A DNA stretch of 64,000 nt from Paenibacillus sp. BIC5C1 (lineage in GTDB: Bacteria; Bacillota; Bacilli; Paenibacillales; Paenibacillaceae). Under the pieces are notes generated by a model. It worked only from the letters and a program-made list of their open reading frames with translations, did no database searches and was not told the origin of the DNA. The stretch covers positions 2,542,001 through 2,606,000 of the forward strand of contig NZ_CP135922.1 in assembly GCF_032399705.1 (NCBI RefSeq), read 5' to 3'. The position numbers and the translations under genes are program-made. Below, piece by piece: positions 49,873 to 60,439 of this stretch (position 1 is the stretch's first letter; each line of letters begins with the position of its first letter).

Positions 49873-50295
49873 TAGAAATCACCTCACGAGAGTTATTTCT
49901 TACTGGTTATATTAAATTCCAATGCTTAAAATTACCTTAAAATCAGCTTATGAAAACATAAAGGTGGGCAATGTTTGAAAAGTGTTCACAATTCAATTGT
50001 GGGCGAAGCATTAAAAAGTCCCGAAAAATCAATTGCCAGCTACCATTTATATGGAAGAAAGATGTGTAGTTTCGCATCCTTGCAATAATTAACGTGACTA
50101 CTGCCTCGAAAGTTCTGAGTCGAATGGACGATATTTTAATATATACGTGGGTCATATGTAACGAAATTACAGGTTGCACATTGCAAACAGGGTGTTTATG
50201 TAAGAAAATAGGGATGGAATAGCGTTTCATCTGCATTATTTTGATTTAATTTGACACTAGGACAATTTACATATGAGACCATGGGAGGGATTATT
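49873..50295. other. 423-nt A/T-rich gap upstream of the T7SS locus
   Basis: No convincing gene on either strand. TTGACA at 50251-50256 lies 40 nt before the first T7SS gene, but the hexamers at -10 distance (TATGAG, TGAGAC) are poor, so an alternative or activated promoter is possible. Confidence 0.4.
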
Positions 50296-50616
50296 TTGAT
50301 TCTTACCGTGTATTCCGGCCGGGAGGAAGGCGAGTGGTTCGACATCGAGGTCCCGGATGAATGTACTATCGAACATCTGAAGACATTGCTGGGAGTCCGC
50401 ATTTTCGGGCAGGCACCGGGAGAAGGGATTCAGTACATCCTTGAAGCCAAATTTCCGGAAGGATTGTGGTTCTCGCCACAGAACACACAACAGTTAATGG
50501 AAACAGGGCTGCGTCAAGGAAGCTGTGTACGGGTCCAACGGGCGTTCTCCACTACTTCTGAAGAAGCGCCAGTGTATGGAAGACGTTCATTGTTTCAGCA
50601 GGACAGCAACGAATGA
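50296..50616 (+). CDS. EsaB/YukD-like ubiquitin-fold protein of T7SS
   Basis: A 106-aa protein with a ubiquitin-like start (ILTVYSGREEGEWFDIEVPD) and TIEHLKTLLGVRIFG helix, matching the YukD/EsaB family found in every T7SSb locus, and a C-terminal tail beyond the normal 80 residues. TTG 50296 lies 5 nt after GGGAGGG. It is the first gene of the locus, 56 nt before essC. Confidence 0.82.
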   Translation: MILTVYSGREEGEWFDIEVPDECTIEHLKTLLGVRIFGQAPGEGIQYILEAKFPEGLWFSPQNTQQLMETGLRQGSCVRVQRAFSTTSEEAPVYGRRSLFQQDSNE

Positions 50617-50672
50617 ACGATCTGGGCGTATATATTGATTACGGCAATGAAATATAAGGAGGTCTTCTCTTC

Positions 50673-53600
50673 GTGAATGTGTTATATCAACGTTCTCCAA
50701 GAATGACACCGGTTCTTAAGGAAGAAAGGCTGGAGATTCTGAGGCCTCCGGCAGAACCAAACAAACCTACATTTTCAATGATTTCTATTATAATACCGAT
50801 CATGATGACGATGGTCAGTATCGGATTCTACGTATATATCAACATGACGGGCAAAATGGGCAATCCCAATTATATGATGTTTCAGATGATGACGGTTATG
50901 ATGATGCTTACTTCATACACGATTCCTTTTTTTGTATATCTGAGCAACAAGAAGTCCTATCGTAAAAAGCTGGAAGAGCGTACTACCATGTATCGTGCAC
51001 AATTGGAGAAGCATCGTGAAGAGTTGAAGGCAGCTCAAGCGGAGCAAGTGAAGAGTCTGTATGAAATTCATGGGGATCCCAATGTATGTCTTCAGTTGGT
51101 GAAGAATCGCAACAGTTCGTTATGGGAACGGTCCCCGGAAGATGATGACTTCCTGCAGGTACGAATCGGCACAGGCGAAATTCCGTTCCGGATCAAACTC
51201 CAGGTTCCTCGTGTGGACGGTTATGAAAAGGATGAGTTAATTGAAGCGGCTCATGAATTGGCAGCTGAATTCGAGACAGTACCCGAAGCATCGATTACAC
51301 TGCCTTTATTTCAGTCGAAAGTTATGGGGTTGGTCGGCAATCGTGAGGAAGTACTCGCTTCATTGCGTGTAATTATTTCACAACTGACCGTCCGTCATTC
51401 ACCGGATGAATTAAAGATTGCTGCCTTTTATGAAGAAAAGGAATCAAAGGAATGGGATTGGCTGCGCTGGTTGCCCCACATTTGGGATGAAGATCAGGGA
51501 CAACGCTATATGGCCGACAGGCACAGCGGTGCGCATCAATTGGCGGACAGCTTGTTTTCCGTGTTGAACCGACGGCGCAATAATAAGGAAGATCGATATA
51601 AGAAAACCGTGCAAACGCCATGTTATGTGGTGGTTCTCTCGGATACTCAATTAATAGAAGAAGAGCCGCTGCTTCCCTTGCTGTTGGAATCGGCGCAGGA
51701 GATCGATGTATGTACCATCATTCTGGCAAACCGCAAGGAATCCCTACCTATGCATTGTCAGTTAATTATGGAGGCTTCCAAAGGAAAAGGGCTTTATATT
51801 AAAAAAACTGAGGATGCCGACGTGATCAGGCAAATGTACACGCCAGATGTGATCACCAGAGAGTCCGCAGATGCACTCTCGCGGTATATGTCACCGATTC
51901 GTCTGAAACGCTCATCCGCTTCAGATATACCCCAGGTGCTTCCGTTGTTCGACATGTTAAGTACATCTCGAGTGGAAGATCTGGATGTGGTCACACGCTG
52001 GAGCCAGACACGGTACCCGGACACACTTCCCGTGCCTATGGGCGTGCGAGCCGGCGGCAAGAAAATTGCAATTAACTTACATGATAAAATCGAACGTCAG
52101 GGTCATGGCCCGCATGGTCTTATCGCAGGGACAACGGGCTCAGGCAAGAGTGAGGTTATCCAGTCAATTGTGGCCTCTCTGGCTGCCGAGTTCCATCCAC
52201 ATGATCTGGCCTTTATGTTGATTGACTATAAGGGCGGCGGGATGTCGAATACATTTGTGGGCTTGCCTCACGTCGTCGGCACGATCACCAATCTGGATGG
52301 AAATTTGATTGAACGAGCCAATATCTCACTGCGGGCCGAACTGGTCAGAAGGCAGAAAATATTAAATGATGCAGGAAATCTCCAGCACATTGATGAGTAT
52401 TACAAAATTCTGCGTTCCAGACATGAACAACCGTTGCCGCATTTGGTTATCATCATTGATGAGTTCGCGCAATTAAAGCGGGATCAGCCGGAGTTCATGG
52501 ATGAATTAATCAGCATAGCGGCCATCGGCCGGACACTAGGTGTACATCTTATACTGGCAACTCAGAAGCCTGCAGGTGTGGTCGATGATAAAATCTGGAG
52601 CAATTCGCGTTTCCGTATCTGTCTTCGCGTTCAAAGTGAAGGGGATAGTCGGGATATGATCAAAATTCCGAATGCGGCCTGGATCACCAAGCCAGGCCGT
52701 GGATACTTCCAGGTAGGCAGTGATGAAGTGTTTGAGGAAATGCAATTCGCCTGGAGTGGTGCGCCGTATAATCAGCAGGAAGATACAACGACAGTATTGC
52801 CTGTTATGGAAGTTCGCTTGAATGGCAAACGGGAACCACTCTTGACTGGAGAGCGCAGAGCTGTGCTCAAAGGTGAGGATGTGCCCAAGCAACTTCAGGT
52901 ATTTATTGATTATGTGGCAGAAGCGGCAGCAGAGGCGGGGATCACCCGATTACCAGGGCCTTGGTTGCCACCCTTGCCTGAGACACTGGAATGGGAAAGC
53001 CTCAACGACTGGCGGGAAGAAGAGAATCGTGAAGTATTGCTTGACGGCGGAGCCGCTGGCCTGAAACCTGTAGTTGGCCTGCTGGATGATCTGCCTAATC
53101 AACGACAGCAGCCGCTCGCACTTCCGGTGGATCAGGGACATCTGGTTGTATACGGTATGCCTGGTCTGGGAAAAACGACGTTTGTGCAAACCTTGCTGAT
53201 GTCACTGGCCCGTTCTAAGCGGACTGAACCTTGGCATGGCTATATTATTGATATGGGCCGGATGATGAAGGATTTCGCAGGCTTGCCTCAGATCGGTGCG
53301 GTAATGATGTCTGAAGAGGAAGATCGGATCAAGCGCTTATTCCGATACATCCTGAAACTGTCGGCACAACGCAAGGACATGATCTCGGAAGCCGGGGTTA
53401 AGACAATATCAGCCTACCGTCGCGCAGCTCATGCAGCCGTGCCACAGATTGTAGTTGTTATCGATGGTTATCTTTCTTTCCGAAATGCTTATCCCGAGGA
53501 GAATGAACTTCTGGAAACGATCCTTCGTGAAGGTGGCAGTTTGGGAATCACATTTATCCTTACGGCCAACCGTGTTACGGATGTATTTGAGAAATTCAGA

Positions 53601-54677
53601 AGCAATATTCCCAATGCGGTTTCGTTTGAATTGTCTGATCCAAGCGACTATTATTACGCAGTGGGACGGCCGTCCAAGGCGCCTAGCCAGCTTCCACCTG
53701 GAAGAGGACTGGTCAAAGGACAGGTACCTCCATTGATGTTCCAGGCGGCTTTGCCATCATCCGGAGCAGATGAAGGCAAGCGTTCTTCCGCTCTGCGCAG
53801 CATGATTGCAGAGATCAGAGAAAACTGGAACGGAGAAGATGCGCCGCAGATTGCGCCGCTCCCGGAAGAGGTTAAGCTCAAAGATGTACTTATCCGTACA
53901 GGAACCTTCGGGCAAGTCTTAGACGGTTCTTCCTTAACAGTACCCGTAGGTCTGCTGACCGATGATTTGGAACCCTTCCTGCTGAATTTGCGTGAAGGAC
54001 CGCATTTCATGGTTACGAGTCCGATGGAAGGTGGCAAAACGACATTTTTGCTGACCTGGATGTTATCCCTTGCCTATCATGCGTCTCCTGAAGACGTGCA
54101 AATATACACGGTAGATATGCGGTATGGTTCCGGAGGACTGGGGGAAATCAATAGTTTGCCCCATGTCCGTGGACACGTATCCCGTGAAGAACAGCTTGCA
54201 CCTGTGATCCAACAGTTGTACGATGAAGTTCTAAAAAGAGGCGAGTTAACCGGTGGACCAGAGATCGTTCTCGTTATCGACGATGCGGATACGTTATCCA
54301 AGCAATTAAATGATTTTAATGTGAAGGATCAATTGGGAGCGATCGTTCGTCAAGGCAGGGACCGAGGAATACATGTGATTCTGTCAGGAGTTCCTGCAGA
54401 CTTTCCAACCTTTGGTTCTGACTGGGTGAACGATGTGAAGGCTTCCCAGAGCGGATTGTTGTTCGGGACTTTAGACCCTAATGATCTCTCGTTCTTCCGT
54501 ATACCTTATTCGGAGTCCGGAGGGAATTCAAATGGGCTGAAGGTACTGCCTCCGGGTCAGGGTTATTATGTAAAACGTAAATATTCCAGGGTTAAAGGTG
54601 CAATTCCATGTGATGGCACCTGGAAAATGACCGATTGGATATCTGAAATTCGTGACCGATGGCATGTTGTAGTTTGA
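50673..54677 (+). CDS. essC: Type VII secretion ATPase EssC/YukB
   Basis: A 1334-aa FtsK/SpoIIIE-type motor of T7SSb. Two transmembrane helices lie at about residues 37-58 and 70-92, followed by three ATPase domains: Walker A GTTGSGKSE near 485, GMPGLGKTT near 830 and PMEGGKTT near 1118, with Walker B IIIDEFAQL and IDDAD. The tandem FHA domains at the start of S. aureus EssC are missing, so it is shorter. The C-terminal domain would bind WXG100 substrates. GTG 50673 follows AAGGAGG. Confidence 0.95.
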   Translation: MNVLYQRSPRMTPVLKEERLEILRPPAEPNKPTFSMISIIIPIMMTMVSIGFYVYINMTGKMGNPNYMMFQMMTVMMMLTSYTIPFFVYLSNKKSYRKKLEERTTMYRAQLEKHREELKAAQAEQVKSLYEIHGDPNVCLQLVKNRNSSLWERSPEDDDFLQVRIGTGEIPFRIKLQVPRVDGYEKDELIEAAHELAAEFETVPEASITLPLFQSKVMGLVGNREEVLASLRVIISQLTVRHSPDELKIAAFYEEKESKEWDWLRWLPHIWDEDQGQRYMADRHSGAHQLADSLFSVLNRRRNNKEDRYKKTVQTPCYVVVLSDTQLIEEEPLLPLLLESAQEIDVCTIILANRKESLPMHCQLIMEASKGKGLYIKKTEDADVIRQMYTPDVITRESADALSRYMSPIRLKRSSASDIPQVLPLFDMLSTSRVEDLDVVTRWSQTRYPDTLPVPMGVRAGGKKIAINLHDKIERQGHGPHGLIAGTTGSGKSEVIQSIVASLAAEFHPHDLAFMLIDYKGGGMSNTFVGLPHVVGTITNLDGNLIERANISLRAELVRRQKILNDAGNLQHIDEYYKILRSRHEQPLPHLVIIIDEFAQLKRDQPEFMDELISIAAIGRTLGVHLILATQKPAGVVDDKIWSNSRFRICLRVQSEGDSRDMIKIPNAAWITKPGRGYFQVGSDEVFEEMQFAWSGAPYNQQEDTTTVLPVMEVRLNGKREPLLTGERRAVLKGEDVPKQLQVFIDYVAEAAAEAGITRLPGPWLPPLPETLEWESLNDWREEENREVLLDGGAAGLKPVVGLLDDLPNQRQQPLALPVDQGHLVVYGMPGLGKTTFVQTLLMSLARSKRTEPWHGYIIDMGRMMKDFAGLPQIGAVMMSEEEDRIKRLFRYILKLSAQRKDMISEAGVKTISAYRRAAHAAVPQIVVVIDGYLSFRNAYPEENELLETILREGGSLGITFILTANRVTDVFEKFRSNIPNAVSFELSDPSDYYYAVGRPSKAPSQLPPGRGLVKGQVPPLMFQAALPSSGADEGKRSSALRSMIAEIRENWNGEDAPQIAPLPEEVKLKDVLIRTGTFGQVLDGSSLTVPVGLLTDDLEPFLLNLREGPHFMVTSPMEGGKTTFLLTWMLSLAYHASPEDVQIYTVDMRYGSGGLGEINSLPHVRGHVSREEQLAPVIQQLYDEVLKRGELTGGPEIVLVIDDADTLSKQLNDFNVKDQLGAIVRQGRDRGIHVILSGVPADFPTFGSDWVNDVKASQSGLLFGTLDPNDLSFFRIPYSESGGNSNGLKVLPPGQGYYVKRKYSRVKGAIPCDGTWKMTDWISEIRDRWHVVV

Positions 54678-54693
54678 GGGGAGGTGGCTCATA

Positions 54694-55524
54694 ATGTTGA
54701 CGGTTCATGATTCCAAGCAAAAGGTAGTCACTTTGCAAATAAAAGAGCTTTTTTTCCTGGCCGGGATTCTCGGTTCAGACCGATTGCTTGGCGTGGAAGA
54801 TCCGTTCCGCGGGTATATGGCGGAAGACATTGCTTTGGAGTGGGAGCGTGTAAAAACATCCCTGCTCGACAAAGGATATCTGATTCAGGATCAGGACAGC
54901 AGTGAGCTGATCATGACACCGACCGTTTTCTCCAGGGTAGCCATTGCGGGACTGTCCGACAGGGCTTGCTGGATTCGCTACACGCACAGCGGCAAGTCGT
55001 ATGAAAGTTATGTGCACTGCACGGATGAACGTGTCGTTGAAGTATCCCGTGTTGCAGACGAACCGGATTCGTTCCGGCTGAGTGACCTGGGGAATGTTCG
55101 TGAAGCGATTGATTTTCTGATTCAAAGAATGAATTGGAGTGGTCATTCTCCGGCGGAAAAGCCGGCACTGATGTGCTCCAAGAAAAAATTCTATGATGTG
55201 ATGAATGATCTGAAGAACAAAGAATTACAGGCAGTGGCTGATGAGTTGGTACAAGAGACAAGCGATCCCGAGGGGTCACTTGCGCTTGCGCGCTGTCTGG
55301 TGAACAAGGAATCAGAAGGGGAACTGCGGTTGCTTGTATGGAACGGAGAAGGATGGAAATCACAGTCTGCGGCTTTCGCTGCAAGTACGGTATCCAACTG
55401 GCTGTTTCGCATGAGTACTGCGGCTTCGGATGATTGGCTTGTTGCAGCACTGACGACGAGAGAACAGTTTCACGAGATGCTGCTGGACTGGCTTAAACAG
55501 CCTGCAGGGGAAGAGGAAAGGTGA
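54694..55524 (+). CDS. T7SS-linked protein of unknown function, 276 aa
   Basis: A soluble alpha/beta protein, 276 aa, without signal or membrane helix. It begins TVHDSKQKVVTLQIKELFFL with a helical block, then strands (CWIRYTHSGKSYESYVH, VVEVSRV), and ends in DDWLVAALTTREQFHEMLLD. It lies 16 nt after essC and 6 nt before the WXG100-like gene, so it belongs to the operon. Position, size and layout are reminiscent of the EspG chaperones of mycobacterial ESX systems, but I see no defining motif. ATG 54694 follows GGGGAGGTGG. Confidence 0.7.
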   Translation: MLTVHDSKQKVVTLQIKELFFLAGILGSDRLLGVEDPFRGYMAEDIALEWERVKTSLLDKGYLIQDQDSSELIMTPTVFSRVAIAGLSDRACWIRYTHSGKSYESYVHCTDERVVEVSRVADEPDSFRLSDLGNVREAIDFLIQRMNWSGHSPAEKPALMCSKKKFYDVMNDLKNKELQAVADELVQETSDPEGSLALARCLVNKESEGELRLLVWNGEGWKSQSAAFAASTVSNWLFRMSTAASDDWLVAALTTREQFHEMLLDWLKQPAGEEER

Positions 55525-55530
55525 TGGTAA

Positions 55531-56079
55531 ATGCGCATTCGTGTGGAACCGGATGTGCTTCGGGCACTGAGCAGGCAGATTCAGTATGCGGCGGAGCAAA
55601 TACAACAAAAGATGACAGTATTGGATCAGGCCATTCATTCGTTGGAGTGGGATCTTGAAGCCCGCGCCGCGATCATGAATGAATGGAATCACAGCAAGCG
55701 ACTCTGCGAAGCAGCAGTACGTCGTTTTATGGACTTGAGCGTACAGCTGGGACGCAAGGCCTTGTTATTCCAGCAGGTGGACATGGAGTATCGTACAGTG
55801 TTGAGTCATGTGAACACAGCCTATGGCAATGCGGTCAATATGTTGAATGTTCTTCAGACGGAGCGTGCAGGAGAGATTATGCCTGCGCATTCGGCAACTG
55901 CTGCTGTTGTATCCGATCCATTTTCCGCGGTAGCGGCAGTGTACCGTGTACAGGATGCCGCACCGCCTGATGGCTCGCCGGCGACCCTGATTCAGGCCAT
56001 GCAGCCTGAACCTGTGGCGTGGAGATTCACAGATCCCTCCTTTCGTGGGAGAAGAGAAACCGAACCTGTGGTTTCCTGA
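55531..56079 (+). CDS. WXG100-like protein with C-terminal extension
   Basis: A 182-aa protein. Residues 1-90 form a helical hairpin of WXG100 size with EWDLE at 39-43 in place of the W-x-G turn, and MEYRTV near 85. A Pro/Ala-rich extension follows (PPDGSPATLIQAMQPEPVAW). It is probably a T7SS substrate or the heterodimer partner of the EsxA-like protein. ATG 55531 follows GGTGATGG, a modest site, 6 nt after the previous gene. Confidence 0.68.
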   Translation: MRIRVEPDVLRALSRQIQYAAEQIQQKMTVLDQAIHSLEWDLEARAAIMNEWNHSKRLCEAAVRRFMDLSVQLGRKALLFQQVDMEYRTVLSHVNTAYGNAVNMLNVLQTERAGEIMPAHSATAAVVSDPFSAVAAVYRVQDAAPPDGSPATLIQAMQPEPVAWRFTDPSFRGRRETEPVVS

Positions 56080-56273
56080 GCTCACGGAGGACAAGGCTGA
56101 ATAAGCAAGACAGCAGAAAGTGAATTTTTTTATAAATAGTCTGTTAGGTGAAGTTTCGAATGCCAAAAATGGGGTAAATAGGATTAGGTCCTTCGGCTTT
56201 TGTCCGATCGATCCTTGTATAGTACAATTTGAACAAGTGAACTTAATTGCACAAACCAAGGAGGAATTTACAA

Positions 56274-56549
56274 ATGGCAGGACGGATTTTAGTTACCCCA
56301 GAACAGCTTGATCAGGTTTCCAACCAATTTAAACAAAGCGGTGAGCAAAGTCAGCAAATCGTTTCTACATTGACTCAATCCATCACAAGCATGGAGGGGC
56401 AATGGGAAGGTATGACGAAACAACGCTTCTTCCAGGAATTCCAGGAAGCCAGCAAACAAATGCAATCTTTCGTTCAGACGCTGAATAGCATCAGCGCGGA
56501 ACTGACGGCTATTGCCAACAAATTCCGTACGGCTGACCAAGCTCGCTAA
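56274..56549 (+). CDS. esxA: WXG100 family T7SS protein, EsxA-like
   Basis: A 91-aa WXG100 protein of normal length. It has two helices joined by W44-E-G46 (MEGQWEGMTKQ). The C-terminal export signal YxxxD/E appears as FRTAD, with Phe for Tyr. It would be secreted as a dimer through EssC. ATG 56274 follows AAGGAGG. A 194-nt gap upstream and a terminator downstream suggest strong separate expression, as usual for esxA. Confidence 0.95.
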   Translation: MAGRILVTPEQLDQVSNQFKQSGEQSQQIVSTLTQSITSMEGQWEGMTKQRFFQEFQEASKQMQSFVQTLNSISAELTAIANKFRTADQAR

Positions 56550-56636
56550 TCTGCGATACATAGTTCGGGCAGTTTTCATTACCGAAGTTGCCCAGAATCA
56601 TATGCGGGAAGCAAGCTGAGGATGTATAACTACAGC

Positions 56637-56670
56637 AAAAACCGGGCGTTTTCACAACACCCGGTTTTTG
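56637..56670 (+). terminator. Terminator after esxA
   Basis: AAAACCGGG-GTT and AAC-CCCGGTTTT with TTTTTG tail, separating esxA from the kinase gene. Read-through or a second promoter must serve the triad genes. Confidence 0.85.
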
Positions 56671-56706
56671 CTGCACTATGACAGAATGACAGAGAGAGGG
56701 ATGAGT

Positions 56707-58800
56707 ATGTCTTTTCAACCAAATCCCGGGGATGAAGTGGTGATTAACGACATTGCCTATATCATTGGGCAGCATCCGGCTGCGCCCGGTCTGGCTTACG
56801 CCCAAGCTGGAAGGCAGGGTATCGTCTATCAGTTGTTACCCCGTAACGGTTCCATAAGTGGGGCCAAAGCACTAAAAGTATTTTTTCCTAAATTCCGTAT
56901 CCCGGCTATGGTGTATCAGTCTGAGCATATGGAGTCTTATAGTGAACTGCCAGGTTTGCAGGTATGCAAGCGTGATGTGCTCACTCCGGAAAGAAACGGA
57001 GCGCTCATTGGAGAACATCCTGATCTGTTGTATGCGGTATTGATGCCGTGGGTGCATGGTCTGACCTGGTTCGATGTAATCAGCGATCAAAAGCAGCTGA
57101 CAGCAGAGGAAAGTCTGAAGCTGGCGAGAGCTCTGGCTGGGACCGGTTCGGCTATGGAACAGCGTGGACTGGCTCATTGTGATTTGTCCGCACCCAATGT
57201 GATGATTCCGTTTTTTTCCGAAGTGGAGAACCTGAGTGGGATTTCAGCAGTTGAACTGGTAGACGTTGAGCAGATGTACGGTTCCAGAATGGATCGTCCA
57301 GATGCTTTGCTTGCCGGTTCACCGGGGTATGCGGCCCATCGGACAGTGCATAGCGGTTTGTGGAGTGCGTATGCCGATCGTTTTGCGGGAGCAGTTATCA
57401 TTGCGGAGATGTTAAGTTGGTCTGATGCAGCGATTGTGGAGAAAGCATGGGGAGAAAGTTATTTTGACCAGCACGAAATGCAGACGGTAAATGAACGTTA
57501 TTATGCCATGAGAGAATCGCTCCAGAAGCGCTGGGGCTCCAAGGTGTCCGATCTGTTTATTCGTGCCTGGGAGAGTCATGATCTCAGCAGCTGCCCTACG
57601 TTTGGCGAATGGTTTGTGGCACTGGCTGCTGTGGACATCCGTCTGGCAAGTGCAGCATCTGTTGAAGAAGAGTCTGAAGTCAAGACTTCAGACCAGTCAA
57701 ATGCAGTGGAGACTAAGCAGATAAAAGGGACAGAAGCAGCAAGCGGTATATCGGATAAGCTGGGAAATACGGGTCAGAATGTGCCCGCCGTGGAACCCTC
57801 TCCTGGTCAGGAAGCGGTAGTAAACCGTCTCTTCCTTCAGGCGAGAGCACTGGAGGATGAAGGCAAACCGGCTGCGGCGCTCGAAGTGTACCGTTCACTA
57901 CATCATTTCATTCCGGATAACAGTGCGATGCAGATGGAAGTTGAGGCTGCGATTCAAGAGCTGGACGCGAAGCTAAATCCCAAGCCTGATGATACAGCTC
58001 AGCCATTCAAGGTTCCTTTTTACCGATCCAAAAAGTTTATGATTTCTTCGGCGGTGTTGATTGTTCTGCTGGCTGGAAGCGTGCCGACGGTAAAAATACT
58101 GGCCGATCAGGCGGAGGTAAAACAGAAGGAGCAGGAGGCGGCTGCCCAACAGGCCGAACAAAAGGCTGCGGAAGAGGCCGAAGCTGCGAGGCTGACTGCT
58201 CTGAAGCAGCAGGAAGAAGAAAAGAAACAAAAAGAAGCAGATGCAGCGAAACTGGATGCAGAGGAAAAGAAAAAGCTGGCTGAAGCGGAGAAAAAGCAGG
58301 CAGAGGCCAAGAAGAAAGAAGAAGAGCGCAAAGCGCTCCAGGCTAAGTACGATAAGCAAGCGAAATATGAGGCGTATCTTGCCAAGCAGAAACAACAGAA
58401 GCTGGAAGCAGCCAAGAAGGCTGAACAGGAAAAGTACGACAAACAGGCGAAATATGAAGCTTACCTAGTCTGGAAAAAAGAAAATGACGCTAAGATTGCG
58501 AAGCAGGAAGCCGAACGTAAGGCAGCAGCTGAGGCTCAGCGCATACAGGAGGCAGCCCAGAAAGCTGCGCTCAAGAAAAAGCGTGCCCAGAATGTTGTCA
58601 CGCTGATAGCGCATTACAATAAAACGTATAATGCGCAAAAAGGCAGAAAAATTGAGAATGCCGAATCATACGCGCGTGATTTCAAAAATCTGTACAACAC
58701 TGATGCGACCTATTTCAAAGGTGTCGGTAAAGTGGCAGCACGAATGAGTGCGATCAATAAATTCCTGAGCAATACGGATTATACATTACCCAACTTGTAA
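56707..58800 (+). CDS. Membrane-anchored protein-kinase-like T7SS protein (EssB-like layout)
   Basis: A 697-aa protein. Residues about 20-320 form a kinase-like domain that keeps likely catalytic residues: Lys in AKALKVFF near 57, HCDLSAPNVM near 157-166 (HxD...N), and an Asp in LVDVEQMY near 186 where DFG would be. A linker follows, then a transmembrane helix at about 441-460, then a Lys/Glu/Ala-rich coiled coil at about 470-640 in which KYDKQAKYEAYL occurs twice. A kinase fold, one membrane helix and an outer helical part are also the layout of EssB/YukC. Start ATG 56707 (AGAGAGGG upstream) or 56701. Confidence 0.8.
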   Translation: MSFQPNPGDEVVINDIAYIIGQHPAAPGLAYAQAGRQGIVYQLLPRNGSISGAKALKVFFPKFRIPAMVYQSEHMESYSELPGLQVCKRDVLTPERNGALIGEHPDLLYAVLMPWVHGLTWFDVISDQKQLTAEESLKLARALAGTGSAMEQRGLAHCDLSAPNVMIPFFSEVENLSGISAVELVDVEQMYGSRMDRPDALLAGSPGYAAHRTVHSGLWSAYADRFAGAVIIAEMLSWSDAAIVEKAWGESYFDQHEMQTVNERYYAMRESLQKRWGSKVSDLFIRAWESHDLSSCPTFGEWFVALAAVDIRLASAASVEEESEVKTSDQSNAVETKQIKGTEAASGISDKLGNTGQNVPAVEPSPGQEAVVNRLFLQARALEDEGKPAAALEVYRSLHHFIPDNSAMQMEVEAAIQELDAKLNPKPDDTAQPFKVPFYRSKKFMISSAVLIVLLAGSVPTVKILADQAEVKQKEQEAAAQQAEQKAAEEAEAARLTALKQQEEEKKQKEADAAKLDAEEKKKLAEAEKKQAEAKKKEEERKALQAKYDKQAKYEAYLAKQKQQKLEAAKKAEQEKYDKQAKYEAYLVWKKENDAKIAKQEAERKAAAEAQRIQEAAQKAALKKKRAQNVVTLIAHYNKTYNAQKGRKIENAESYARDFKNLYNTDATYFKGVGKVAARMSAINKFLSNTDYTLPNL

Positions 58801-58833
58801 AATAACGTGAACGACGGAGGTGACACATCCCAG

Positions 58834-59586
58834 ATGAACTACACAATTCAAGCATCCCAGCGCACACCCGCACTGATTATCTATTTAATTGATATTAGCG
58901 CCTCTATGAATATGGTTCTGGACAACCGTCGGCGGATTGATGTCGTTTATGATGCCTTATCTCTGGCTATTCGCCAAATGGTGTTTCGTTCGACCAAGGG
59001 CAACCGACTGACACCCCGTTACAGGATCGCGATTCTGGCATACAGCGACGATGTGTACGACCTGTTGAACGGGATAAAAGGAATCGACGAAATCGCTGCT
59101 GTAGGTTCCTTACCCGACTTAACGCCGAAAAGATTCTCGGATTCAGCGAAAGCTTTCCTGCAGGCCGAGAAAATTCTGCAGGCTGAAATTCCAAATATGC
59201 AGGATTGCCCTGCACCGCTTGTATGTCATATGACCGATGGGGTAGCTACAGGCGAAGATCCGGAGCCCATTGCCAAAAGAATAATGGGTATGAGCGTGCC
59301 TGATGGCAATGTACTCGTCGAGAATATTTTTATATCCGATCATCTGCTGGAGGGCCCTATTCCAGAGCCGCGAAGATGGAAGGGAATATCCCAGGAGACG
59401 GTCCTTCAGGATGAACATGGGGAGAAGCTGCGCAATATGTCCTCGGTTCTGCCGGAAAGTTATCGTGAAATGCTGGTTGAGGCGGATTATTTGCTTTCAC
59501 CTGGTGCACTGATGATGCTTCCCGGTACTTGTGCAGAACTGGTATCCATCGGGTTTCAGATGTCCGCTGCTACGCCTGTGAGATAG
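58834..59586 (+). CDS. von Willebrand factor A domain protein (TerY-like)
   Basis: A 250-aa single VWA domain. The metal-binding MIDAS is intact: D20-I-S22-A-S24 in YLIDISASMN, and a later Asp in HMTDGVATGED near 130. There is no signal peptide, so it is cytosolic. It lies 33 nt after the kinase-like gene and 10 nt before the PP2C gene, giving the VWA-kinase-phosphatase trio known from TerY-type systems. ATG 58834 has ACGGAGG about 13 nt upstream. Confidence 0.87.
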   Translation: MNYTIQASQRTPALIIYLIDISASMNMVLDNRRRIDVVYDALSLAIRQMVFRSTKGNRLTPRYRIAILAYSDDVYDLLNGIKGIDEIAAVGSLPDLTPKRFSDSAKAFLQAEKILQAEIPNMQDCPAPLVCHMTDGVATGEDPEPIAKRIMGMSVPDGNVLVENIFISDHLLEGPIPEPRRWKGISQETVLQDEHGEKLRNMSSVLPESYREMLVEADYLLSPGALMMLPGTCAELVSIGFQMSAATPVR

Positions 59587-59596
59587 GAGGGGAATC

Positions 59597-60439
59597 ATGA
59601 GAGCGATGCGTTTGGCAACATTGTCTGCTGGAGATAAGGGGAGCCGTGCGGACCACTATCAGGGCAACTTTCGTTATGTGAGTGTCCAGACAGGGGAACA
59701 GCCGTTGACCCGTTATCAAGGTACATTCAAATGCAGGTATGGCTATGGAAGAGCGGCGGAGACCGTTAATCAGGGAGACACCGGACAGGATTTTGCTGCT
59801 GTTCGCATGAATGGTAATGTGTGTACTTTCGTATTATGTGATGGGGTAGGCATGAGTTACCTTGGGGATTTTGCCGCACGCTTTCTGGGGAACGCCTTGC
59901 TGGAGTGGCTGGAAACGACTCCGCATCCTTCTTTGGATGTTATGGAACGTCTGCTTCATGATTTGACCAGTTCGGCATCCGAACAGCTGGAGAAGTTGCA
60001 GCCTTTGGAAAACTCGCCTGTACTGCTGCGGGAAGTGCTGATGGAGAAGCGGAGCAAGGGAAGTCAGGCCATGTACGTATGTGGACGCATCGAGCTCTCG
60101 GCAGGCAATCGAAAAAGCAAAGTGTGGCTAGCCTGGCAAGGGGATTCCCGTATCCGTCTCTGGCGTAACGGTCAGGAGCAATCGGCAGCATTTCAGATGA
60201 ACTGCCGTACGAATGAACGTTGGTCTACATTGGAAGGTCCAGTGGGTGGCCAACCGCATATCTATGAGGCGAAAATGTCTGCGAATGAAGCAATTCGTCT
60301 GCAAATGTACACGGATGGCCTGAATGATCTGGATGCTATCCAGGCTTATATTCCGGATGAGCACATCCAGGTGCTGCTGGATGCCAGACATACGGGCGGG
60401 CTTGAAGATGATGCCGCTTTCATTGAGCTGGAATGGTGA
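59597..60439 (+). CDS. PP2C-like serine/threonine phosphatase
   Basis: A 280-aa PP2C-family protein. Metal and catalytic motifs are GQDFAAVR near residue 64, VLCDGVG near 80, WQGDSRIRLW near 180, YTDGLNDL near 240 and EDDAAFIELEW at the C-terminus. The first 50 residues are an extra N-terminal segment. It probably reverses phosphorylation by the kinase-like protein two genes upstream. ATG 59597 follows TAGGAGGGG. Confidence 0.85.
   Translation: MRAMRLATLSAGDKGSRADHYQGNFRYVSVQTGEQPLTRYQGTFKCRYGYGRAAETVNQGDTGQDFAAVRMNGNVCTFVLCDGVGMSYLGDFAARFLGNALLEWLETTPHPSLDVMERLLHDLTSSASEQLEKLQPLENSPVLLREVLMEKRSKGSQAMYVCGRIELSAGNRKSKVWLAWQGDSRIRLWRNGQEQSAAFQMNCRTNERWSTLEGPVGGQPHIYEAKMSANEAIRLQMYTDGLNDLDAIQAYIPDEHIQVLLDARHTGGLEDDAAFIELEW

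Follow-up and report, generated by a model that had tools for sequence, protein, structure and literature searches.

The locus considered here raises the question of why genes for a membrane kinase, a von Willebrand factor A (VWA) protein and a phosphatase follow those of a type VII secretion system (T7SS), and whether all of them form one machine controlled by reversible phosphorylation. It lies in the window, a stretch of 64,000 nucleotides (positions 2542001-2606000 of the single-contig, 7.08-Mb genome of Paenibacillus sp. BIC5C1); the closest matches to its VWA protein among public genome records come from Paenibacillus taichungensis and P. pabuli. The original prediction proposed a T7SS whose assembly or gating is controlled by phosphorylation sensed through the VWA protein, the three genes being filed as a TerY-type triad. 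The system is almost certainly T7SSc, the subtype defined by Garrett, Higginson & Palmer in 2024 (PMC11217815), and the triad belongs together with its EssC ATPase; that this T7SSc is run by a phospho-switch is the best explanation of the whole, and a fairly probable one. The earlier reading is thus reasonable at its core, but it is not new, and neither the TerY filing nor the VWA protein as sensor is borne out.

Identity of the locus

The predicted layout of eight genes on one strand is real: eight intact co-directional open reading frames (ORFs) occupy positions 50281-60439 of the plus strand, comprising all seven published T7SSc components and an eighth, WXG100-like gene. The features, in window coordinates, are as follows.

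50281..50616, plus strand: tscB, EsaB/YukD-like ubiquitin-fold protein, 111 amino acids (aa) from the ATG (mechanical ORF start 50251)
50673..54677, plus strand: tscC, EssC ATPase, 1334 aa, with three FtsK/SpoIIIE stretches (TIGR03928)
54694..55524, plus strand: tscG, EspG-like chaperone, 276 aa (AlphaFold and Foldseek)
55531..56079, plus strand: WXG100-like protein, extended at its C-terminus, 182 aa (TIGR03930 E 2.3e-6, below cut-off)
56274..56549, plus strand: tscA, EsxA (WXG100), 100 aa, ATG start (PF06013, 71 bits)
56634..56672, plus strand: terminator-like hairpin between esxA and the kinase gene, -23.4 kcal/mol
56701..58800, plus strand: tscD, membrane Ser/Thr kinase, 710-aa ORF (motifs, hydropathy and profile)
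58834..59586, plus strand: tscE, VWA protein, 259-aa ORF (VWA_2, DxSxS and TDG)
59597..60439, plus strand: tscF, PPM/PP2C phosphatase, 280 aa (PF13672, PP2C_2)

In the published T7SSc, known from Paenibacillus, Brevibacillus brevis and B. anthracis, TscA is EsxA, TscB EsaB-like, TscC an EssC without FHA domain, TscG EspG-like, TscD a membrane kinase with conserved active site, TscE a VWA protein and TscF a PPM phosphatase (T7SSc passages of PMC11217815); the window shares these seven components, down to the FHA-less EssC, the kept kinase active site and the EspG-like TscG. Public genome contigs scanned for the VWA protein yielded 180 pattern matches, of which 150 were confirmed and the best 80 kept, so that distant loci are under-represented; 72 of these 80 loci hold all seven families, which argues that the locus is not a chance arrangement (the kinase is present in 80/80 and EssC in 79/80, the exception being a short contig; genes of relatives were labelled with profiles built iteratively from the compared loci themselves). 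The novelty of the arrangement therefore does not survive, T7SSc having been published for Paenibacillus in 2024. Literature searches for the T7SSc and Tsc names gave PMC11217815 alone, and no link between VWA proteins and T7SS appears in the term-matched passages of PMC3482391 and PMC12419801. With the layout settled as published T7SSc, there is no need for rediscovery.

The individual assignments differ in kind. TscC scores 1211 bits against TIGR03928 (cut-off 778) and has no N-terminal FHA domain, its start aligning to a point just past that domain in FHA-bearing relatives. TscB, with zero Pfam or NCBIfam matches, is assigned by fold only: its AlphaFold model is ubiquitin-like (mean predicted local distance difference test score, pLDDT, 81), and its Foldseek matches include YukD (2bps), the ubiquitin-like domain of EccD (7np7, 7npt) and the B. 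subtilis T7SSb core unit (9qks) among many further ubiquitin folds, some of them ranked above these. The 276-aa protein that had been listed as unknown is indeed present, but it is no longer unknown, since its model (mean pLDDT 88) has the EspG chaperone fold; the top 18 Foldseek matches are all mycobacterial EspG (E 1.6e-13 to 2e-10), and the first match after them stands at 1.5e-3. The long second WXG100-like gene distinguishes the locus from the published description, in which each cluster has one WXG100 gene (T7SSc passages of PMC11217815); an ORF of this kind of at least 150 aa is present in 77/80 loci and in some species encodes 350-400 aa with a stretch that, read by eye, is glycine-rich and zipper-like. 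The 182-aa protein is a candidate substrate or partner. The EssC of Brevibacillus falls on the window's side of a quick EssC tree (this and the other trees are midpoint-rooted, with support from the Shimodaira-Hasegawa-like approximate likelihood ratio test only).

Compared with T7SSb of S. aureus and B. subtilis, the window shares EssC, EsxA, an EsaB-like protein and a single-pass membrane protein of kinase fold, but EssA, EssB and EsaA are not found, a kinase with catalytic motifs replaces the pseudokinase, and an EspG-like chaperone, a VWA protein and a phosphatase are added. The absence of EssA and EsaA that had been claimed for the locus extends to the whole genome as far as these searches go: EssA has 0 matches in the organism's own genome, and the EsaA profile has six, all below cut-off, five of which were checked and rejected as EsaA because each scores better as YhgE/Pip. 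YukC/EssB likewise has 0 matches in the genome, so that the claimed lack of a standard EssB stands, with the rider that TscD shares the topology of EssB, whose fold is that of a pseudokinase (according to passages of PMC11217815). A complete essA/essB/esaA set elsewhere in the genome, which would have spoken against the proposal, did not emerge, since none of the three genes was found there (five of the six sub-threshold EsaA matches checked), and one EssC was found (four of nine candidates scored).

The triad and its linkage to EssC

Linkage was quantified in a draw of 148 genomes of the family, in which EssC searches scored up to four candidates per genome and returned 57 EssC rows in 50 genomes. 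The VWA protein and the kinase occur in the same 35 genomes, with 39 copies each; the VWA gene lies at most 8.7 kb from an essC in 38 of its 39 copies, on the same strand in all 38, and the kinase gene at most 5.5 kb from one, again in 38 of 39 and on the same strand. A VWA gene stands within 20 kb of all 33 window-like EssC copies and of all five FHA-type copies. The other 19 EssC rows, without a VWA gene within 20 kb, are 18 members of a group labelled by its 35-37% value and one fragment, and no VWA protein was found in genomes of the draw that hold only other kinds of EssC. The 35-37% group (17 of its 18 loci were taken in, G064 being left out) may be called 'Tad' by its resemblance to T7SSg/h as described in passages of PMC11217815. 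Triad and EssC of this kind therefore belong together, as had been proposed. Over wider samples the VWA protein is found in 143/394 family genomes and, in a phylum-wide draw, in 5/398 genomes, all of its own family; the public contig scan adds Brevibacillus and Ectobacillus. Some of the 80 loci also belong to the 148-genome draw, and some contigs stand under two names (L053/L132).

Frequent occurrence of the triad away from essC, which would have spoken for separate systems, comes down to one copy in 39. In that genome (G083), in which no essC was found, a kinase-VWA fusion stands beside a PP2C gene, an FHA/DUF6382 protein and T2SSF/DUF5702 (Tad-like) genes (L154 4-20 kb, L155), and a further contig encodes a TscD-like kinase. 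Upstream of a T7SSc essC, L023:2164-3948 encodes a protein that resembles the DUF6382-FHA protein of L154 (phmmer E 1.5e-34).

TscD consists of an N-terminal, cytoplasmic kinase domain, a transmembrane (TM) helix at about residues 455-480 of the 710-aa ORF (placed by hydropathy on the near-identical L055) and about 230 aa predicted to lie outside. It is a divergent kinase, which on its own matches Pfam Pkinase with E 0.012, below cut-off, while its family profile matches PDB kinases with E of about 4e-6. The motifs ALKV, HCDLSAPN and VDVE are all there, and across 98 kinase ORFs HxD[LM]SxxN is kept in 95, the ALK-type lysine in 92 and D[VLMI]E in 95, several of the misses being clipped ORFs. 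EssB does not appear among the 60 top-ranked of the 585 PDB matches that the kinase profile drew, though kinship with it may still exist. A start at 56701 or 56707 fits the relatives better than the TTG at 56668, which lies in the hairpin.

TscE matches Pfam VWA_2 with 22.6 bits (E 1.7e-4), below the cut-off of 27, and its metal-site motifs DxSxS and TDG are invariant in 11/11 aligned sequences; its start was moved from the GTG at 58807 to 58834 because relatives lack the upstream residues. It is the best conserved member of the triad (mean column identity 73%, versus 56% for the kinase domain and 43% for the phosphatase) and is predicted to be cytoplasmic in T7SSc (PMC11217815, T7SSc passages). 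TscF scores 26.9 bits against PF13672 (cut-off 24), with its metal residues D65, D82/G83, G182/D183, D240/G241 and D271/D272 invariant in 10/10 aligned sequences. Since kinase and phosphatase both look catalytic, reversible phosphorylation is the natural reading of the pair.

Between esxA and the kinase gene, a hairpin of the kind listed above is found in 63 of 74 assessable loci, versus a mean of 0.15 (maximum 1) of 74 in 20 base-shuffled controls, which were shuffled by single bases and not dinucleotides. The CCGGG core could be read in 59 loci (40 distinct ones); on the 3' side T is kept at outer positions 1-4, the 5' side has mostly A and otherwise G, with C or T also at positions 3-4, and pairing is down to 19/39 at position 5. 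This is how a terminator read on the plus strand would look, and the triad may therefore be expressed apart from, or lower than, EsxA. Neither the hairpin nor the phosphatase-less branch described below figures in the passages of PMC11217815 on T7SSc.

Two lineages that vary the set

Twelve distinct loci carry an EssC with an FHA domain (L051, L052/L157, L053/L132, L133, L156, L158, L160, L161/L173, L162/L177, L163/L170, L164 and L165/L171). These EssC proteins have 1534-1598 aa; PF00498 is matched in L051, L052 and L053, and the FHA motifs GR, SxxH and NG are kept in 7/7 rows, which represent six distinct loci (L053 being L132). An FHA-only profile built from six of the loci matched the 12 distinct loci, its six sources included, and 0 of 129 other EssC ORFs longer than 1000 aa; among the 129 is the edge-cut L162, whose EssC is read whole in L177 and has the FHA domain there. 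In the quick EssC tree, which holds six such rows, the FHA-type proteins form one clade apart from T7SSc EssC.

The triad of this lineage is closely related to that of the window, with VWA identities of 62% (L051) and 68% (L053), kinase relatives, and a phosphatase in 11 of the 12 loci. Its VWA protein carries a canonical kinase fused to its N-terminus (in L053, Pfam Pkinase E 1e-47): this second kinase lies within the VWA ORF in 11/12 loci, and in the twelfth (G541) is an ORF of its own, of 220 aa, immediately ahead of the VWA gene. The sole kinase-VWA fusion beyond the FHA loci is that of G083; the 92 loci with a long FHA-less EssC ORF and a VWA gene (some species counted twice) include one fused VWA, taken to be the edge-cut L162. 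Neither TscB nor TscG was found in L132 or L133. In the kinase tree the FHA-lineage kinases of L052 and L132 group, on long branches, with the T7SSc kinase of L025, a hint that the cassette has been exchanged. A conserved protein of about 650 aa that matches no Pfam domain is encoded immediately downstream of the kinase gene at L133:13376-15343, L156:8015-10021 and, in G083, L155:16423-18366.

With T7SSe, T7SSd and T7SSj, as described in passages of PMC11217815, the FHA lineage (L053, L133, L160 and others) shares an FHA-bearing EssC and a membrane kinase, and with T7SSe and T7SSj also a PPM phosphatase. It differs from all three in the VWA protein, which is not named for them; the term 'vWA' occurs twice in the main text of that paper, both times in the T7SSc section. 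Single-query phmmer did not find TseJ (DUF6382-FHA), the marker of T7SSe, in the FHA-EssC loci scanned, which are those outside L170-L177. The lineage may be an undescribed T7SS subtype, or else a variant of T7SSe not listed in those passages.

The second variant consists of eight T7SSc-like loci without a TscF-like gene (L022, L024, L029-L031, L166, L168 and L169). In all eight the kinase ends at most six residues past the TM helix, so that the outside part is absent. Of the 94 kinase ORFs that extend further, only that of L156, of FHA type, comes from a locus without detected phosphatase, and the other short kinases (L101, L119) are clipped ORFs in which no TM helix was found. Five of these loci are on the EssC tree, in a single clade, and loss of the phosphatase was therefore probably one event and not eight. 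That the kinases of the branch are pseudokinases was considered and ruled out, their catalytic motifs being kept, and no hidden PP2C was found in nine flank proteins of L024 and L029. L166, L168 and L169 also encode a protein of 1592-1689 aa with a WXG100-like match.

Proposed phospho-gating, its rivals and candidate substrates

Phosphorylation control has been raised for some T7SS subtypes (PMC11217815, in passages on these). In the mechanism proposed here TscC would be the motor, with TscB sitting on it as the ubiquitin-like domain of EccD does in ESX-5, and TscG would deliver WXG100 proteins and WXG100-headed toxins. TscD would stand in for EssB as single-pass membrane partner while being, unlike EssB, a live kinase; its outside part would take in a signal from the cell envelope or a neighbour, whereupon it would phosphorylate the export complex or itself. 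TscE would be the adaptor linking kinase to motor, and TscF would strip the phosphate and so reset the system, phosphorylation gating assembly or firing. From the gene content and motifs described, phospho-gating of secretion appears slightly favoured. The role of TscE as adaptor, which suits a protein predicted to be cytoplasmic and best conserved of the triad, is an even call. Sensing through the VWA protein, as first proposed, does not agree with that predicted location (T7SSc passages of PMC11217815); the part facing outward is the C-terminal region of the kinase.

The variants bear on this mechanism from both sides. The FHA lineage would favour it by combining writer and reader in one locus, namely the VWA-fused kinase and the FHA domain of EssC, and the phosphatase-less branch agrees with the outside part serving as input and TscF as reset, although a single event is no proof. 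Several points weigh against it. The EssC of the window lacks an FHA domain, and the locus has no known phospho-reader; the T7SSc passages of PMC11217815 hold no phosphorylation or secretion data on TscD; and the triad, given the hairpin, may not be at one expression level with the other genes. The phosphatase, furthermore, is missing from one T7SSc branch, with no match to the TscF profile in the whole genome of G007 (the profile is empty in G083 and G046 too, though G083 has a Pfam PP2C, so that divergent phosphatases escape it), and in L156 it is undetected though the kinase keeps its outside part.

The rival that survives best holds that TscD is mainly a structural replacement for EssB, with catalysis and TscF minor or serving turnover only. 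It would account for the topology shared with the pseudokinase-fold EssB (passages of PMC11217815) and for the absence of TscF from a whole branch, including the G007 genome. A structural part should drift, however, as EssB did, whereas HxDxSxxN is kept in 95/98 TscD ORFs, those of the TscF-less branch included; this reading is unlikely. Less probable again is a general phospho-signalling cassette acting in a broader envelope response, the T7SS being one output among others, for which the essC-less neighbourhood of the G083 fusion and the presence of the same triad in two distant EssC lineages could be cited. Against it stand the 38 of 39 VWA copies that adjoin essC and, in the 148-genome draw, the lack of VWA copies in genomes with only other EssC kinds.

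A third rival, a TerY-type stress triad adjoining the T7SS by accident and unrelated to it in function, draws on the same three domain types and neighbouring genes in E. coli YegI/PphC/YegL, which we take to be linked to TerY-type triads. Its chances are very slim, since the linkage of triad and essC is conserved and the E. coli proteins give no significant sequence match. Searched against YegI, PphC and YegL, the three profiles reached best full-sequence E values of 0.082, 0.022 and 0.014 in a three-protein search, and hhalign aligned only 19 VWA columns (probability 53%) and 187 kinase columns at 0.8%; the yardstick is one E. coli set, PphC was compared by hidden Markov model search only, and distant kinship is possible. 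'TerY-type' is therefore a likeness of parts, with kinship not shown by these comparisons, and the label given in the original prediction is not supported. Descent by decay from a T7SSb that lost EssA, EssB and EsaA, which would explain the EssC, EsxA and EsaB-like protein common to both, can be practically discounted, as the locus has an EspG-fold chaperone and a distinct set of seven genes that recurs in Paenibacillus, Brevibacillus and Ectobacillus.

A parallel to the proposed phospho-switch is found in type VI secretion systems (T6SS), where threonine phosphorylation acts through PpkA, PppA and Fha, with a paired phosphatase as in T7SSc. The A. tumefaciens system (cited in passages of PMC11217815) shares a membrane kinase inside the secretion locus, but the T6SS is another machine, and the window locus has no FHA reader. 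A wider proposal, tentative and somewhat doubtful, is that the triad is a transferable phospho-switch cassette used by two distant EssC lineages, T7SSc with its FHA-less motor and the FHA lineage, which would be a new subtype. In the latter the VWA protein would have gained a Ser/Thr kinase of its own, bringing writer, adaptor and phosphothreonine reader together at one locus; the VWA protein would be the common coupler, and loss of phosphatase and outside domain would mark a constitutively signalling T7SSc branch. Natural variants exist with and without FHA reader, extra kinase, phosphatase and sensor part, and their comparison offers direct handles on the question left open in the passages of PMC11217815, whether phosphorylation runs such T7SS.

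Candidate substrates come from the organism's own genome, which has eight WXG100 matches and in which no LXG proteins were found. Three proteins headed by a WXG100 domain are encoded away from the window (G000 being this genome).

G000:C1 1020859-1021845 (L149): WXG100-headed protein, 328 aa
G000:C1 1091650-1092942 (L150): WXG100-headed protein, 430 aa
G000:C1 6975828-6976970 (L153): WXG100-headed protein, 380 aa

Since the genome search turned up a single EssC, the three proteins are candidate substrates of T7SSc. The C-terminal stretch of the 430-aa protein resembles a PD-(D/E)xK nuclease by eye, without Pfam support, and the 380-aa protein matches EndoU weakly (E 0.015, below cut-off); both look like antibacterial nuclease toxins, as far as such sequence likeness goes. 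A small gene directly follows each of these two genes and could encode immunity. In a genome with one EssC detected, the WXG100-headed toxin candidates are possible reporters of export.

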